From assembly GCA_007695015.1 (NCBI GenBank), contig REEN01000035.1, forward strand, positions 1 through 39,372: a DNA stretch of 39,372 bases, read 5' to 3'. Numbering within the stretch: the stretch's first letter is position 1; the number at the start of each line of letters is the position of its first letter. The notes under the pieces were generated by a model. It did not search any database. It saw nothing but the letters and a program-made list of their open reading frames with translations, and was not told where the DNA came from. This DNA is from Marinilabiliales bacterium. GTDB lineage: Bacteria > Bacteroidota > Bacteroidia > Bacteroidales > PUMT01. Shown here one piece after another: positions 7,656 to 36,508 of the stretch. Both the position numbers and the translations under genes were made by a program.

Positions 7656-7684
7656 TTGTTTTTATAAGTATATTTATAATTTTG
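7656..7684 (+). promoter_or_regulatory. Predicted promoter of the DUF4914-type gene
   Basis: TTG at 7656-7658 and TAATTTTG at 7677-7684 are separated by 18 bases, close to the Bacteroidota consensus TTTG-N19-TAnnTTTG. Transcription would begin near 7691, giving a leader of roughly 65 bases. The position in the gap between tex and the next gene supports an independent transcript. Confidence 0.55.
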
Positions 7685-7757
7685 CGGCGGTTTATGGGTG
7701 TGGTTTATTGATCGAATGCATAATTAAATTTTTGATTATTTAACCTCTTAATCTATC

Positions 7758-9626
7758 ATGTTACCAGATAATATCAGTCTGCCCGAGGAGGTTTCCGGCC
7801 TTCTCTCAAAATGTCCTGATTGTAAGTTATTCACAAGTTCCGCAGAACTTGCAGATGCAGCGGTTGGAGGCAAGGAAAATAACAGCTTTGAGGTCAGCTA
7901 TGAAATCAAAGGAAAGGGTAAGCATGTGGAAGCCATGGTTCACCGGGTTGCCAACGGTATCTCTGTGAACTATACAGAGACCTACATGAGAAGAAGGGAT
8001 CCTGACACCCTGGTGGTTGCCGATGATAAACCAAGTGATAAGGAGAGGTTCAGTGACAAGTATGGCAGTGAGTTCAGTCCGTTGCGCCAGGAAACGATTG
8101 ACTGGCTTATTGAACAGCAACTTGGATATTTCATATTCAAGATCGGCCCTTCCGAATTCAGTTATTATGGTATAGCCATTGCACCGGCAAATGCTGCATT
8201 TTTCTGTATGGGGCTGTCACTGCTTCAGAAAATAATCGATCCGGCTGAAGTAAAAGAAGAAATAGCTGTAAAATCTGTAGTTTATGTAGCACCCACTTTC
8301 AGGCATACACATTTTGATGGAAAACAGGTTGTGGTGCACAACCGGACAGACGAAGTTTATGAAATATTTTCCTACAATCTTTATCCCGGACCCAGCGCAA
8401 AAAAGGGTATCTATGGCGTACTTCTCAGCATAGGAGAATTTGAGGGATGGTCAGCCCCGCACTGTTCGGCGGTCCAGAGCGTAAGTCCCTATGACAATAT
8501 AACAACATTCATGCACGAGGGTGCCAGTGGGGGAGGAAAAAGTGAAATGCTCCAGATGATCGTCCGTGAGCCTGAAGGCTCTGTCGAGATAGGTGAAAAT
8601 ACCATCACCGGCGAGAAAAGGGCAACTGCAATCCCGCAGTTTTGCAAGATCAACCCTGTATGCGATGATATGGGCATAGTCCATCCATCATATGAAACCG
8701 GCGGAATGAGATTGCGAATCATGGATGCTGAGCACGGCTGGTTTATAAGGACGGACAATATTACGGGTTACGGATGCGAACCTCAGATTGAGAAACTTAC
8801 CATAAACTCCACGGAACCGCTTCTGTTTCTGAATATCCGCACCAATCCCGGCGGAACGGCACTCATATGGAACCATATCGAAGACGAACCCGGTAAGCCA
8901 TGTCCCAATCCCCGTGTGGTTGTCCCCAGGCAGATATTCCCCGGTGTTGTTAATAAACCTGTTTCAGTTGACGTAAGGAGCTTTGGTGTGCGCACTCCTC
9001 CGTGCTCGGCAGAAAACCCAAGCTATGGAATAATAGGGCTGTTCCATATTTTGCCGCCGGCCCTTGCATGGTTATGGAGGCTTGTATCGCCAAGGGGGCA
9101 TGCTAATCCAAGTATAGTTGATTCTGACAAGATGGGCAGCGAGGGAGTAGGCTCATACTGGCCTTTTGCTACAGGGCTTAAGGTAACGCATGCCAACCTT
9201 CTTCTGGACCAGATCGTGAATAATACCGTTACCCAGTATGTTTTGACCCCCAACCAGTATATAGGTGTCTGGAAGGTTGGGTTCAAACCGCAGCTGCTGA
9301 TGCGTGAGTACCTTACAAGAAGGGGCAATGCCAAGTTCAGGGCAGAACAGTACCAGTCCGCCCGGTGCCCCCTGCTCGGTTTTGAACTTAACTACCTTAC
9401 AATAGAGGGGTCGAAGATCCCATCACGCTTTCTTAAGGTTTACAGACAGGAAGCAGTAGGTTTTGAGGGTTATGACAAAGGTGCTGAAATTCTTAAGGCA
9501 TTTTTCCATGAGCAGCTTCCGCAGTACCAGGTCAACGGGCTGTCTGATCTGGGACGCAGGATAATTGAAACATGCCTTGACAATGGGAATGTTGAAGATT
9601 ATGAAAGTTTAATTGAAAAAAGGTAA
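7758..9626 (+). CDS. DUF4914-type protein with phosphoenolpyruvate-carboxykinase-like active-site motifs
   Basis: A 622-residue protein of unknown function that I recognise, from memory, as the DUF4914 family of Bacteroidota and anaerobic Firmicutes. Three motifs run in the same order as in ATP-type PEP carboxykinase. APHCSAV (H235) resembles the MHCSAN segment with the metal-binding histidine. About 20 residues later comes HEGASGGGKSEM (P-loop, K261) where PEPCK has GLSGTGKTT. MDAEHGW (D323, E325, H326) resembles the kinase-2 DDEHGW. This points to a nucleotide-dependent phosphotransferase in the PEPCK/HPr-kinase superfamily, whose substrate is not known. No signal peptide or membrane helix is present, so it is cytoplasmic. 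A C-terminal region with YVLTPNQYIGVWKVGF lacks obvious PEPCK counterparts. It has its own predicted promoter and ends 54 bases before the oligopeptidase gene. Confidence 0.8.
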   Translation: MLPDNISLPEEVSGLLSKCPDCKLFTSSAELADAAVGGKENNSFEVSYEIKGKGKHVEAMVHRVANGISVNYTETYMRRRDPDTLVVADDKPSDKERFSDKYGSEFSPLRQETIDWLIEQQLGYFIFKIGPSEFSYYGIAIAPANAAFFCMGLSLLQKIIDPAEVKEEIAVKSVVYVAPTFRHTHFDGKQVVVHNRTDEVYEIFSYNLYPGPSAKKGIYGVLLSIGEFEGWSAPHCSAVQSVSPYDNITTFMHEGASGGGKSEMLQMIVREPEGSVEIGENTITGEKRATAIPQFCKINPVCDDMGIVHPSYETGGMRLRIMDAEHGWFIRTDNITGYGCEPQIEKLTINSTEPLLFLNIRTNPGGTALIWNHIEDEPGKPCPNPRVVVPRQIFPGVVNKPVSVDVRSFGVRTPPCSAENPSYGIIGLFHILPPALAWLWRLVSPRGHANPSIVDSDKMGSEGVGSYWPFATGLKVTHANLLLDQIVNNTVTQYVLTPNQYIGVWKVGFKPQLLMREYLTRRGNAKFRAEQYQSARCPLLGFELNYLTIEGSKIPSRFLKVYRQEAVGFEGYDKGAEILKAFFHEQLPQYQVNGLSDLGRRIIETCLDNGNVEDYESLIEKR

Positions 9627-23355: not shown

Positions 23356-24696
23356 ATGAAGATAATCATGGTCGGTACCGGGTATGTTGGTTTGGTATCC
23401 GGGACCTGTTTTGCCGAAACTGGCGTAGATGTAGTTTGTGTTGATGTTGACAAACAGAAAATAGATAAGCTTAAGGAAGGGATCATGACAATATATGAAC
23501 CCGGCCTTGAAGACATGGTGGCAAGTAATCTCGAAAAGGGGCGCCTGAAGTTTTCTACAAGTCTGAAAGATAATCTTGAGGAGGCCGATGCAGTATTTAT
23601 TGCAGTTGGCACGCCTCCTGATGAGGACGGCAGCGCCGACCTGAGGTATGTGATTGAAGTAGCAAGGGAGATAGGCAGGAATATGAACCATTATATGGTT
23701 GTGGTGACAAAGAGCACAGTGCCAATTGGAACATCTGCCAAAGTAAGGAGTGCTGTTATTGAAGAACAACGTGAACGGGGGGTTGAAATCCCGTTTGATG
23801 TGGCCTCAAACCCTGAATTCCTTAAAGAGGGAAGCGCCATAGGTGACTTTCTCAAGCCGGAGAGGATTATAGTCGGAACTGATTCTGAAGATGCAGAAAA
23901 GATGATGCGGAGGCTATACAAGCCTTTTGTGCTGAATAACCATCCCATAATCTTCATGGATATACCGTCGGCTGAGCTTACAAAATATGCAGCCAATTCC
24001 ATGCTTGCAACCCGAATAAGCTTCATGAATGATATCGCAAACCTGTGCGAGCTTGTCGGCGCCGACATTAACTCCGTCCGCCGAGGTATAGGAAGTGACA
24101 GCCGTATTGGGAGCAAGTTCATTTATGCCGGAGCCGGCTATGGGGGATCATGTTTTCCCAAGGATGTCAAGGCTCTCATAAGGACAGCCGACGAAAGCAA
24201 CTATTCGCTTGAAATACTTAAAGCTGTTGAAAATGTTAACCAAAGGCAGAAGGAGGTGCTCTTCAACAAGGTGATGGATCATTTTGAAGGTAATATTGCC
24301 GGTAAACGTATTGCCATCTGGGGATTGTCATTCAAGCCCCGGACAGACGATATGAGGGAGGCTCCGGTGCTGGTAATTATAGACAAGCTGATTCAGGCGG
24401 GCGCCAGCGTGATCGCCTATGATCCTGTTGCCATTGACGAGGCGCGCCGGAAACTCGGCGATTCCATTGAATATGCAAGTGACCAGTACGAGGCGCTTGT
24501 CGATGCCGAGGCCTTGCTGCTTGTTACCGAGTGGAATGACTTCAGGACCCTTAATTACAAGGTGTTATCCAAACTTATGAAGAATAAACTTGTTTTCGAT
24601 GGCCGAAATCTGTATGAGCCTTCTGAAATGAAAGAGTTTGGCTTCACCTATTACGGTATCGGGCGCAGGTTGTCAGGCGAACAGAACAGGATGTAA
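23356..24696 (+). CDS. ugd: UDP-glucose 6-dehydrogenase
   Basis: Oxidises UDP-glucose twice with NAD+ to UDP-glucuronate. The N-terminal Rossmann motif is [11 protein letters not shown] (residues 6-16). The catalytic cysteine C266 lies in [12 protein letters not shown]. The central dimerisation helix region and the C-terminal UDP-binding domain ([34 protein letters not shown]) are all present. At 446 residues the length is usual. It is the first gene of a tightly spaced run with the decarboxylase, RfbA, RfbC and RfbD, and its product feeds the next enzyme. Confidence 0.97.
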
Positions 24697-24707
24697 AATC
24701 CGGAAAC

Positions 24708-25649
24708 ATGAGACGCATACTGGTTACAGGCGGCGCGGGATTTATAGGCTCACACCTTTGCGAAAGGTTACTTGAAGAGGGTAATGAGGTTTTGTGCCTG
24801 GACAATTTTTTTACCGGTTCCAGGAAAAATATCATACACCTGCTTGATAATCCCTGGTTTGAGCTTGTGCGACATGACGTAACCATGCCATACTACAGCG
24901 AGATAGACCAGATATTCAACCTTGCATGCCCGGCCTCCCCGATTCATTACAGCCACAATCCGATCAAGACGGTCAAGACAAATGTGATGGGGGCCATCAA
25001 TATGCTCGGACTTGCCAAGCGTAAGAAGGCCATTATATTGCAGGCTTCAACAAGTGAAGTCTACGGCGATCCGCAGGTCCACCCGCAGAAGGAAGATTAC
25101 TGGGGTTACGTGAATCCGATCGGCGACAGGTCCTGCTATGATGAGGGTAAAAGGTGCGCCGAAACACTGTTCATGGACTACCATAAGCAGAATGGCGTAA
25201 GGATCAAGATAGCGCGGATATTCAATACCTACGGTCCCCGTATGCAACTGGATGACGGACGTGTCGTCTCAAATTTCATTGTCAGGGCGTTAAAGGGCGA
25301 GGATATAGTTATATATGGCGATGGCTCACAAACGAGAGGGTTCCAGTATGTAGCCGACCTGGTAGAGGCGCTGGTCAGATTAATGAACACACCCGACCAT
25401 TTTACCGGTCCGGTCAATATAGGGAACCCGGGAGAGATATCAATCCTTGAACTTGCCAGTATGATAGCCCAAATGACCGGGTCTGGCTCAAAAATGGTTT
25501 TTGTTCCACCCAGGAGTGATGACCCGGTAAGAAGGGACCCCGACATATCCCTTGCTTCACGCGAACTGGGAGGCTGGAAGCCCTCAGTTGATCTGGAGGA
25601 GGGACTTGGAAAAACCATAAGATATTTCATAGATGAATTGAAAACATAA
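24708..25649 (+). CDS. UDP-glucuronate decarboxylase (UDP-xylose synthase)
   Basis: Converts UDP-glucuronate to UDP-xylose with bound NAD+. It is an extended short-chain dehydrogenase: GGAGFIGSH at residues 8-16 binds NAD, and the catalytic Y144-x3-K148 lies in RSCYDEGKR, a signature that separates UDP-xylose synthase from RfbB-type dehydratases. Further typical segments are [24 protein letters not shown] and [10 protein letters not shown]. At 313 residues it is full length and lacks a membrane anchor, so it is cytoplasmic. It starts 11 bases after ugd. Confidence 0.96.
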
Positions 25650-25661
25650 AATCTTTCCTGT

Positions 25662-26543
25662 ATGAGAGGAATTGTACTGGCCGGCGGAGCCGGCACAAGG
25701 CTGCATCCGGTAACCCACAGCATATCCAAACAGATATTGCCGGTGTATGACAAACCCATGATATATTACCCTTTATCGGTCCTGCTCCTGGCGGGGATAC
25801 GGGAAATACTCATTATTTCGACACCGCATGATCTTCCACTATTCAGGCACCTGTTGGGAAACGGCGACCGGTTAGGGGTCACCTTTTCCTACAAGGAGCA
25901 ACCCGAGCCGGGGGGACTTTCTCAGGCCTTTCTGATAGGAGAGGATTTTCTTGAAGATCAACCGGCATGCCTTATTCTTGGCGACAATATTTTTTACGGA
26001 TACGGGCTCAGCGGCATCCTTACAAAGGCATCGGAGATTACTGACGGGGGACAGGTGTTCGGTTACTTCGTGAATAATCCCAGAAGGTACGGTGTTGTCG
26101 AGTTTAACGACAGGGGCGACGTATTGAGCATAGAGGAGAAGCCCGCAAAACCTAAATCCAACTACGCGGTTACCGGTCTCTACTTTTACGGGAATGATGT
26201 GGTTGAGAAGGCAAAATCCCTTAAACCCTCTGCCAGGGGTGAGCTTGAGATCACCGATCTTAACCGCCTCTACCTGGATGAGGGGCGCCTAAGCGTGAAT
26301 CTGCTCGGACGCGGCATGGCCTGGCTCGATACCGGCACCCACGAAAGCCTGCTCCAGGCCTCAAATTTTATCCATACGATAGAGGAGAGGCAGGGGTTGA
26401 AGATCGCCTGCCTGGAGGAGATCGCATACAAGAAGGGCTTCATTGACAGGGATATGCTCCTGCACAGTGCAAAAGTGTTAAAGAACAACAAGTACGGCGA
26501 CTACCTCCTGCAGGTGGCCGGCGAAACTTCAGGAAAGCAGTGA
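25662..26543 (+). CDS. rfbA: Glucose-1-phosphate thymidylyltransferase (RfbA/RmlA)
   Basis: First enzyme of dTDP-rhamnose synthesis, making dTDP-glucose from glucose 1-phosphate and dTTP. The nucleotide-binding [11 protein letters not shown] and the sugar-phosphate-binding [17 protein letters not shown] segments are clear, followed by [10 protein letters not shown] (magnesium aspartate) and [34 protein letters not shown] is the usual C-terminal element. At 293 residues it is standard. It lies 12 bases after the decarboxylase gene and 4 bases before rfbC. Confidence 0.97.
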
Positions 26544-26547
26544 TAAT

Positions 26548-27111
26548 ATGAAGATAAGGGAAACGGAAATACCGGGGTTGGTGGTTATTGAACCCAGGGT
26601 TTATGAGGATGCCAGGGGGTATTTTTACGAGAGTTATAATGAAAGGCTTTTCAGTGAGCACGGGCTGCCATCCGGATGGGTGCAGGACAACGAGTCACGC
26701 TCTGCCATGAACGTGATCAGGGGTCTTCACTACCAGCTTGCACCATATGCCCAGGCAAAGCTTTTAAGGGTTCTGGAAGGCGCCATCCTTGATGTGGCTG
26801 TCGACCTGCGAAAAAACTCGCCAACCTTCGGCAAATGGAGCGGGATCGAGATATCGTCAGACAACAGGTTGCAGCTGCTGGTGCCCAAAGGCTGCGCCCA
26901 TGGTTTCAGGGTGCTGACAAAAAGTGCCACGGTTCTCTATAAATGTGATGACTTTTATAATCCCAGTGCGGAGAGGGGCATCCTCTTCTCCGACAGCCAT
27001 ATCGCGATAGACTGGGGAATCGAACCGTCCAGGGCCGTTGTATCTGATAAGGATATGAATGCACCATCCTTTGCCGCAGCCGATTATAATTTTATATTTG
27101 GTAATATATGA
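26548..27111 (+). CDS. rfbC: dTDP-4-dehydrorhamnose 3,5-epimerase (RfbC/RmlC)
   Basis: Third enzyme of dTDP-rhamnose synthesis. It is a cupin enzyme with catalytic H61 in VIRGLHYQ and the expected tyrosine Y137 in KCDDFYNP. PKGCAHGFRVL (residues about 111-121) is the family signature. The length of 187 residues is normal. Its stop codon overlaps the rfbD start by four bases (ATGA), implying translational coupling. Confidence 0.97.
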   Translation: MKIRETEIPGLVVIEPRVYEDARGYFYESYNERLFSEHGLPSGWVQDNESRSAMNVIRGLHYQLAPYAQAKLLRVLEGAILDVAVDLRKNSPTFGKWSGIEISSDNRLQLLVPKGCAHGFRVLTKSATVLYKCDDFYNPSAERGILFSDSHIAIDWGIEPSRAVVSDKDMNAPSFAAADYNFIFGNI

Positions 27112-27980
27112 AGACGTTGCTTGTAACAGGGGCCCGGGGACAACTGGGGCAGGAGCTGCAGGGGCTCTCATATACCCATGTGTTCAGGGACTACCGGTTC
27201 CTGTTCACCGATGTCGATACACTTGACATAACCAATGCCGGCAGGGTGGAGGAGTATATTGCCAAAAACGGCATAGACTGTGTCATAAACTGCGCTTCGT
27301 ATACAAATGTTGATAAGGCTGAAACCGAGCAGGATGCCGCGATGCTGATCAATGGCACGGCACCCGGGCTGCTTGCCGGCGCATGTGCCGGCAAGGGCGC
27401 TTTTCTTGTCCATGTAGGCACCGATTTTGTTTTTGACGGCGAAAGGCCCGTGCCTTATCGCGAGGAAGATAATGCCGCTCCAATTTCTTCATATGGCCGG
27501 TCAAAGCTCGAGGGTGACAGGGCAGTGCTCGCCTATGAGCGGGGAACAGTGGTACGCACATCATGGCTTTATTCCTCGTACGGTCATAATTTTTTCAGGA
27601 CCATACACCGTCTTGCCCATGAGAAGGATGAGCTTTCTGTGGTGTATGACCAGGCGGGCACCCCTACCTATGCACGGGATCTTGCAAGGGTGCTGCTTTT
27701 GCTTGCCGTTAATTCCCTTTCGGGGAAGGGCAGTTACGGCAAGGAACTGTTCCATTACAGCAACGAAGGAGTCTGTTCATGGTATGACTTTGCACTTGAG
27801 ATAATTACGCTTACGGGAATACAATGCCGGGTAAAGCCGGTAGAGACGGAGCAGTACCCACTGCCGGCGCGCAGGCCCCGTTACAGCGTCATGAGCAAGT
27901 CGAAGATAAGGTCGCGGCTGGAAATCGACATCCCGCACTGGAAAGAGAGCCTCCGCAACTGTATCTCGCAGCTTGACTGA
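27108..27980 (+). CDS. rfbD: dTDP-4-dehydrorhamnose reductase (RfbD/RmlD)
   Basis: Final NAD(P)H-dependent reduction yielding dTDP-L-rhamnose. The NAD(P)-binding GARGQLGQEL opens the protein, the catalytic tyrosine and lysine lie in SSYGRSKLEGD, and VRTSWLYSSYGHNFF is a conserved RmlD segment. The C-terminus PARRPRYSVMSKSKIRS matches the usual substrate-binding end. At 290 residues it is full length. It ends the tightly packed run; the expected fourth gene, rfbB, is not adjacent. Confidence 0.96.
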   Translation: MKTLLVTGARGQLGQELQGLSYTHVFRDYRFLFTDVDTLDITNAGRVEEYIAKNGIDCVINCASYTNVDKAETEQDAAMLINGTAPGLLAGACAGKGAFLVHVGTDFVFDGERPVPYREEDNAAPISSYGRSKLEGDRAVLAYERGTVVRTSWLYSSYGHNFFRTIHRLAHEKDELSVVYDQAGTPTYARDLARVLLLLAVNSLSGKGSYGKELFHYSNEGVCSWYDFALEIITLTGIQCRVKPVETEQYPLPARRPRYSVMSKSKIRSRLEIDIPHWKESLRNCISQLD

Positions 27981-35089: not shown

Positions 35090-36508
35090 ATGAAGGATGC
35101 GATCAAGACCTTTTTCCTGTTTCTGTTTGTCTCATTGATGGTTATGCCTGCCGGTTGCGGCAGTCCGGAGCCGGCCGTCAGGGATGACGTGTGCTGCCTC
35201 GACGGACTGGGCGAGCGCAGGGCCGTCGGTTTCCGCTGGTCGGTATACGGCGCCAGGCGCACACCCAATACCAAAGAGTTCTGGTACAATGCAGCCGAGC
35301 AGTTCAACTCCTACTTCGATTACACCTGTCCGGAATTCATCTGGATAGTCGGCAACCTGCGAGGCGGCGGCTGCAACCTCGGGTTCCCGGCCGATACTGA
35401 CCATGAGCTCATATTTTCGGCCGAGACTGATCTTTATGAAGAGACATTCAGGCTATTCAGCGACATGGGAGTGAGGGTATGGCTCTCATTCGAGCCGGGC
35501 CATGCCCCTGTTGATGAGCTTCTCCACCTTATCCTTCAGCAATACAGCCACCACTCATGCATAGTGGGTATCGGCATTGACGTTGAGTGGAACGACTGCA
35601 GCGAGGGCTCTAAAGGCACACCGGTATCTGATGAGGATGCACTGCGCTGGATCAGCATCGCCAAGGAGTACAACCCCGATTACAAGTTCATGTTCAGGCA
35701 CTGGCGCGTTGATGTGATGCCCCCGACAGTCCGCGAAGACGTCATGTTCGTATCCAACAGCCAGATGTTTCCCGACTTCGGCACACAGGTGAGGGAGTTC
35801 CAGAGGTGGGGCGAGGCCTTCAGTCCGGCACCCATAGGTTTCCAGATAGGATATCCCAGGGACAGGGACTGGTGGGGCGAGTATGATAATCCTCCCCAGT
35901 TCATGGGCGATTCATTGTTTGCGGCAATACCAAACCTGAATGGTCTTTACTGGGTCGATTTCAGCACCGAGCTTGTCTTTGACGATATCGATACAGAAAA
36001 GACAACGGGTAACCTGCTGGCTACAGCCAGGGAATGGAGGGCCGCAACCGACAGGTTAGGTTCAAGGTACGAGTCCGGCGACCGCCTCATAAACTGCGGG
36101 GTGGCAGAGGTCACCTACCACCAGGCGGCAATCTCAGACAGGGGATTTCCATTTGTGGAGCTGATTTGCGGACTGAATGACAATATCGCCAACTACTCCG
36201 GTGGTTCAATAACCTACAAATGCGATTCAGACCTGTTGATAAAGCTTTCACAGAGTGATTTCGGTCCCGCCGGAAACAGCACCTATTCACATTACCAGCT
36301 CCTGGTGCCTGCATCGGAGGAGTGGAACACCGTTTATTTTGATTTCGACGAGTTCGCGCAGCCTGACTGGGCGCCTGAGGTTTCGCGAAGCATCCCGATA
36401 GTGAAGGAGAATGTCGATGCCGTGTACCTGGTGCCTGCGCTGGACTATGAAACCGAAGCGAGTGCGACACTGAAGGTAAAAGACCTGAGACTGACAGCCG
36501 GTAACTGA
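35090..36508 (+). CDS. Lipoprotein, putative TIM-barrel hydrolase with C-terminal beta-sandwich
   Basis: A 472-residue lipoprotein (MPAGC, C23) of a family I cannot name. Residues about 45-330 have the rhythm of a beta/alpha barrel, with strand-end segments WLSFEPGHA, GIGIDVEW (D and E as possible catalytic or substrate-binding residues), FMFRHWRVDV, PIGFQIGYPRD and GLYWVDFST. From about 345 to 472 comes a separate beta-rich domain like a carbohydrate-binding module. Many Trp and Tyr residues suit sugar binding. It is two bases upstream of the next gene, another lipoprotein of the same style, so they form an operon. A glycan-acting role is an inference. Confidence 0.7.
   Translation: MKDAIKTFFLFLFVSLMVMPAGCGSPEPAVRDDVCCLDGLGERRAVGFRWSVYGARRTPNTKEFWYNAAEQFNSYFDYTCPEFIWIVGNLRGGGCNLGFPADTDHELIFSAETDLYEETFRLFSDMGVRVWLSFEPGHAPVDELLHLILQQYSHHSCIVGIGIDVEWNDCSEGSKGTPVSDEDALRWISIAKEYNPDYKFMFRHWRVDVMPPTVREDVMFVSNSQMFPDFGTQVREFQRWGEAFSPAPIGFQIGYPRDRDWWGEYDNPPQFMGDSLFAAIPNLNGLYWVDFSTELVFDDIDTEKTTGNLLATAREWRAATDRLGSRYESGDRLINCGVAEVTYHQAAISDRGFPFVELICGLNDNIANYSGGSITYKCDSDLLIKLSQSDFGPAGNSTYSHYQLLVPASEEWNTVYFDFDEFAQPDWAPEVSRSIPIVKENVDAVYLVPALDYETEASATLKVKDLRLTAGN

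Follow-up and report, generated by a model that had tools for sequence, protein, structure and literature searches.

Evidence for Remote Homology between the DUF4914 Family and PEP Carboxykinases, with Most Active-Site Positions Conserved

The exchange of PEP and oxaloacetate is a main metabolic branch point. PEP carboxykinases (PEPCKs) using ATP, GTP or pyrophosphate (PPi) have been described, and the same source terms the PPi enzyme unrelated to the other two (PMC8100219). For comparison, we used the ATP enzyme (EC 4.1.1.49, PF01293; T. thermophilus 2pc9 and E. coli pck), the GTP enzyme (EC 4.1.1.32, PF00821), and the PPi enzyme (EC 4.1.1.38; 8e1u and 6k31). The protein compared with them belongs to DUF4914 (PF16260), a Pfam family without an assigned function, and is encoded in a 39,372-nucleotide stretch of DNA from a Marinilabiliales bacterium (contig REEN01000035.1; hereafter, the window). 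In the open-licence literature, we found no mention of DUF4914 or PF16260, and no article on PEPCK-like proteins pointed to the family by its title or the start of its abstract.

The gene lies at 7758..9626 and, like every protein feature given below, on the + strand of the window. An original prediction, made from the DNA letters, had read this frame as a DUF4914 protein bearing the PEPCK motif series. The frame is real, with an ATG start and 622 codons plus a stop, and family membership is clear (PF16260, 933.3 bits against a curated cut-off of 25.7, profile positions 1-612 of 612). The motifs are located as proposed, APHCSAV at residue 233, HEGASGGGKSEM at 253 and MDAEHGW at 322. Together with the model and structure matches described below, the frame and Pfam assignment identify the product as a member of the PEPCK superfamily.

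Direct sequence searches detected this relationship faintly. The window protein was not listed against PF01293 at E values up to 10 and did not match PF00821, and as neither model matches, DUF4914 is classed with neither the ATP nor the GTP enzyme. Searching solved structures, phmmer listed no PEPCK, two profile searches reached ATP-PEPCK only at E 1.5, and at 0.067 and 0.16, and neither method gave a PDB sequence match to PPi-PEPCK. Some family members matched PEPCK models weakly (best E 0.00058 and 0.0072), PF01293 being listed for 3 of 81 members with a best E of 0.0072; in the family scans, families unrelated to PEPCK scored similarly. Run against the sample of our organism's own phylum, the DUF4914 HMM produced seven matches below the cut-off, six of which are ATP-PEPCKs as judged by their P-loop and HCSA motifs. 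The seventh, a 262-residue frame, reads as a response regulator and was set aside as a chance match.

HMM-HMM alignment of DUF4914 with 26 ATP-PEPCKs gave a probability of 92.4 and E 5.1e-7, rising with 48 ATP-PEPCKs to 96.6 and E 5.2e-10 in local mode and to 99.1 and E 8.1e-18 in global mode. As these E-values derive from single comparisons, control profiles were run. The real ATP-PEPCK profile scored 75.6 in hhalign, while none of 25 unrelated families exceeded 38.2 (the highest being read as an ABC-type ATPase, the other 24 reaching at most 20.8), 15 column-shuffled PEPCK profiles at most 24.9, and the reversed profile 24.3. The resemblance of DUF4914 to PEPCK, as judged from these profiles, is not due to chance. 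The match to 23 GTP-PEPCKs was weak (probability 56.1 and E 1.1e-4 local, E 13.6 global), its local E-value passing only modestly the strongest control (E 7e-4); this set was motif-selected, 17 of the 18 newly added sequences having been picked by the GTP-PEPCK motif pattern, and one sequence (L190) was left out.

The predicted fold agrees. An AlphaFold2 model built from the window protein and an alignment of 80 relatives had a pLDDT of 87.6 and a pTM of 0.88, with pLDDT below 50 confined to residues 257-264, in the P-loop, and 451-456. Every one of the 50 Foldseek matches listed was a PEPCK; the ATP, GTP and PPi enzymes were all represented, at E 8.9e-21 to 1.5e-18, and the GTP enzyme 2qzy stood at the top (E 8.9e-21). 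VIA-align placed the ATP enzyme 2pc9 first, with a Z-score of 29.2 over 485 residues at 3.1 Å covering model residues 1-609; GTP-PEPCKs followed with Z about 25. The PPi enzyme 8e1u scored Z 26.6, below ATP-PEPCK, over 579 residues at 3.4 Å. Among the 50 matches listed, PPi-PEPCK had the most residues aligned and the highest query-normalised TM (0.70-0.74 for 8e1u and 6k31), two measures that both favour a longer target, its chains having about 1110-1126 residues compared with 622 for DUF4914. The motif comparison below covers the ATP and GTP enzymes. The original prediction had called for a structural model to be set against PEPCK, and the predicted model carries the PEPCK fold over the whole chain. 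The second segment of low pLDDT lies in R446-S466 (9093..9155), a possible lid loop, beyond which F470 pairs with F413; judging from the model, residues 451-456 are perhaps the PEPCK lid.

To follow individual residues within the family, we used a 110-row alignment comprising the window protein, 80 loci retained as the best of 123 relatives in a contig scan (with 61-95% identity to the window protein), 7 from the own-phylum sample and 22 from a 249-genome sample; L138 was left out, and L144 and L146 lack their first residues. Identity to the window protein ranges from 48 to 95%, and 117 columns are invariant. Correspondence to E. coli ATP-PEPCK was read from alignments in seven settings, two with a narrow profile and five with broader ones. 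In all seven, R79 pairs with R65, Y209 with Y207, K215-K216 with K212-K213, H235 with H232, S257, K261 and S262 with S250, K254 and T255, and N384 and R386 with N331 and R333. Every one of these DUF4914 residues is invariant (110/110). In the E. coli enzyme, R65, Y207, N331 and R333 are substrate-binding residues, and K213 and H232 are metal ligands.

These positions fall in short conserved segments along the chain. R79 lies within R78-R80 (7989..7997); since R78 and R80 are also invariant, its assignment could be off by one. Y209, K215 and K216 lie in YPGPSAKKG (Y209-G217, 8382..8408), the Lys-Lys pair being shifted by one residue in the alignment with 23 GTP-PEPCKs. APHCSAV (8454..8474) carries H235 at the place of the metal ligand H232, as originally proposed; its C236 is not conserved in DUF4914. 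CPNPR (C382-R386, 8901..8915) holds N384 and R386 and is also aligned with GTP-PEPCK, whose DD, HPNxR and FGGRR motifs align with D303-D304, CPNPR and FGVRT; within the last, F409-R412 (8982..8993), R412 pairs with the first Arg of FGGRR. The P-loop, GASGGGKSE (residues 255-263, 8520..8546), contains the superfamily pattern GxSGxGK[ST] as GASGGGKS and lacks the Cys-containing loop of GTP-PEPCK (PSACGKT). Conservation of H235 and K261, on which the original prediction had staked its assignment, is thus complete, and K261 stands at the place of the P-loop Lys. The spacing between the two, described as nearly identical to that of PEPCK, is similar but not exact, with 26 residues from H235 to K261 and 22 from H232 to K254; exact equality is found between K216 and H235 and between K213 and H232, both 19 residues. 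Remote homology of DUF4914 to PEPCK, with most active-site positions conserved, is well supported by these comparisons.

The third proposed motif fared differently. MDAEHGW had been equated with DDEHGW of PEPCK, yet H326 is His in only 7 of 110 rows and Asn in 82. Only the narrow ATP-PEPCK profile (2/7 settings) pairs E325 with E270 of DDEHGW, whereas the broader profiles (5/7) move the segment to a later strand, pairing E325 with E282 and R331 with K288, and GTP-PEPCK alignments with 23 sequences (3/3 settings) place M322-E325 on the INPE segment. M322-R331 (MDAEHGWFIR, 8721..8750) is therefore the likelier counterpart of the FNFEGGCYAK/INPE strand, and MDAEHGW is probably not equivalent to DDEHGW. 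From the alignments, the metal-binding Asp pair most likely corresponds to D303-D304 (8664..8669), favored because it is invariant and closes a predicted strand. All three GTP settings place it there; the ATP alignments disagree, five broad settings putting the pair on E280-N281 (D269 with N281), where Glu is found in 60 and Asn in 104 of 110 rows, and the two narrow ones putting D269 on A324.

On the side of the phosphate donor, DUF4914 departs from ATP-PEPCK. The P-loop is altered as originally noted, reading GGGKSE, with GGG (GSG in two rows) where PEPCK has GTG, and E263, invariant in DUF4914, stands at the position of T256. Within F509-R516 (9282..9305), K510 pairs with R449 and M515 with T455, two ATP-contacting residues of the E. 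coli enzyme, in all seven settings. Both columns vary across the 110 rows, the first being Lys in 84 and Met in 20, the second Met in 82 and Thr in 11. Since the R449 and T455 positions vary and an invariant Glu replaces T256, the donor or the way it is bound would be unlike that of ATP-PEPCK. By analogy, PPi suggests itself as the candidate donor, given that the PPi enzyme has this fold and aligns with more model residues than any other match listed, a measure that its long chains favor.

Given these comparisons, we think it fairly probable that DUF4914 constitutes a fourth PEPCK-type family, acting on oxaloacetate and PEP with a donor or donor-binding mode unlike ATP-PEPCK; judging from its residues, the family may represent an oxaloacetate-PEP enzyme of a type not yet recognised. 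In such an enzyme, a divalent metal would be held by K216, H235 and probably D304, and oxaloacetate or PEP by R79, Y209 and R386. The phosphate donor would sit on the P-loop (S257, K261, S262) with a second metal at S262, a lid would close, and the reversible reaction would release CO2 from oxaloacetate and phosphorylate it, giving PEP, or run the other way. If this is true, a domain of unknown function becomes a testable enzyme, a further PEPCK family could close a gap in how the metabolism of Thermotoga and certain anaerobes is reconstructed, and DUF4914 would offer a new case of how the PEPCK fold selects its phosphate donor.

The distribution of the family bears on its role. Above the DUF4914 cut-off are 8 of 296 genomes in the own-phylum sample, our organism's included, and 26 of 249 in a sample from the phylum of G297, the genome of locus L021, whose record is titled Clostridiaceae; we call this phylum Clostridia-like by inference. 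Among 14 control genomes, only Thermotoga maritima had a match, and none was found in the plasmid records. L021 and a second locus, L062, whose record is titled Candidatus Anammoxibacter, carry DUF4914 proteins with 64% and 62% identity to the window protein. Relatives in the 249-genome sample are only 48-56% identical, and for this reason we suspect misbinning; both contigs are probably Bacteroidota. Two further genomes have apparently broken copies, one with many in-frame stops (G361; L150-L152 and L148) and one with a single TGA and the gene split across two contigs (G428; L147 and L149).

Carriers differ in their other enzymes of PEP and oxaloacetate. By profile search, the window's genome encodes an ordinary ATP-PEPCK (704 bits) and no GTP-PEPCK, PF00311 PEP carboxylase or PF02436 protein. 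GTP-PEPCK occurs in 4 of the 8 own-phylum carriers. In the 249-genome sample, ATP-PEPCK is above its cut-off in 5/26 carriers compared with 98/223 other genomes (p 0.019), GTP-PEPCK is present in 4/26 and 23/223, and either enzyme in 9/26 and 116/223 (p 0.10), p-values that ignore kinship and genome incompleteness. These counts argue weakly for replacement of other PEPCKs by DUF4914. With G297 excluded, 17 of 25 carriers, some of them perhaps incomplete genomes, have neither PEPCK, and none of the 25 has PEP carboxylase of the PF00311 type above its cut-off (the other type being PF14010), G464 showing a weak match below it. A link to PF02436 (pyruvate carboxylase/oxaloacetate decarboxylase), suggested by its presence in 22 of these 25 carriers, was rejected given a base rate of 214/249; at 22/26 carriers and 192/223 others, there is no association. 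T. maritima matched none of PF01293, PF00821 and PF00311, and a published table has no pepck entry for it (PMC3561251). DUF4914 could thus serve as the PEPCK in certain lineages and is an extra protein elsewhere. Such coexistence has a parallel in PPi-PEPCK, which often accompanies ATP- or GTP-PEPCK (PMC8100219). A narrower form of the proposal, which we hold only tentatively, is a compact PEPCK whose donor would be PPi or some other compound outside the purine nucleoside triphosphates; it would be the overlooked PEP-oxaloacetate enzyme of Thermotoga, and also of those anaerobes that carry DUF4914 but lack ATP-PEPCK, GTP-PEPCK and PEP carboxylase.

The original prediction had instead favored a PEPCK-like phosphotransferase for something other than oxaloacetate; some other keto acid or dicarboxylic acid would be an example. 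The PEPCK-like part of that view stands. Its argument against oxaloacetate was that the substrate-binding elements of the C-terminal part were not apparent; N384 and R386, aligned in every setting, contradict this, and since the positions aligned with the oxaloacetate- or PEP-binding Arg, Tyr, Lys, Asn and Arg of PEPCK do not vary in DUF4914, this argument for a different acceptor falls. Such an acceptor keeps some appeal from the low identity to ATP-PEPCKs (15-17% among the matches listed), the segment of about 25 extra residues between the P-loop and D303, and the canonical ATP-PEPCK in the window's genome, which leaves a further PEPCK not obviously needed there. Overall, we regard a different acceptor as rather unlikely. 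Less plausible still is a nucleotide-dependent small-molecule or protein kinase, which would have only the P-loop and metal site in common with PEPCK, as is the case for HPr kinase. The P-loop and metal-site residues by themselves would fit such an enzyme, but both the homology and the structural match take in almost the entire chain on either side of the P-loop, and PEPCK residues outside the loop are conserved too. A catalytically dead or regulatory PEPCK derivative, to which the uncertain third metal ligand and the two genomes with a many-stop copy and a contig-split copy with one stop might point, is highly improbable in the face of 117 invariant columns over 110 rows, the aligned active-site positions among them.

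Returning to the proposed oxaloacetate- and PEP-acting family, nothing in its gene neighborhoods ties it to the metabolism of PEP or oxaloacetate, and no enzyme partner recurs widely across 99 neighborhoods (99 of 101 loci had a recognised target; some loci are short, with few neighbors). The commonest neighbor, which immediately precedes the DUF4914 gene in the same orientation in 28 of these 99, reads as an XRE-type helix-turn-helix regulator whose C-terminal part is cupin-like. It occurs at L011, L015, L016 and 25 other loci, at none of one group of 20 loci, and not in the window. It is a possible regulator of DUF4914.

In the window, a Tex-type gene ends 135 bp before the DUF4914 start and a prolyl oligopeptidase gene starts 54 bp 3' of its end, both on the same strand. 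The gene had been described as standing alone with its own promoter. With the next same-strand gene only 54 bp on, it need not be alone, and the promoter claim is weak. A single candidate, TAATTTTG (7677..7684, + strand), resembles a Bacteroidota-type -7 element. No TTTG or matching -33 box lies upstream, TTTG occurring only at 7681, inside TAATTTTG, and at 7731. From the letters, a separate promoter is possible.

The searches also brought up other PEPCK-like sequences. A short frame in the window's own genome (G000:C71:3905-4090) is a second, weak PF01293 match with GFSGAGKST and is possibly HPr-kinase-like. Four divergent proteins (L179-L182, in G498, G547, G545 and G503) score 66-79 bits to PF01293 and carry GLSG[AS]GKST and HDDA motifs; in G503, a PF02436 match is found some 200 bp away from the gene. 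In a second divergent group (L183 and L203-L209; 249-307 bits), IRQDD replaces LIGDD. Elsewhere in the window, a 472-residue ORF at 35090-36508 has no Pfam match at E 0.0001, and at 23356-27980, consecutive genes for a UDP-glucose/GDP-mannose dehydrogenase, an epimerase, a nucleotidyltransferase and an RmlD-type protein likely form a sugar-nucleotide cluster.
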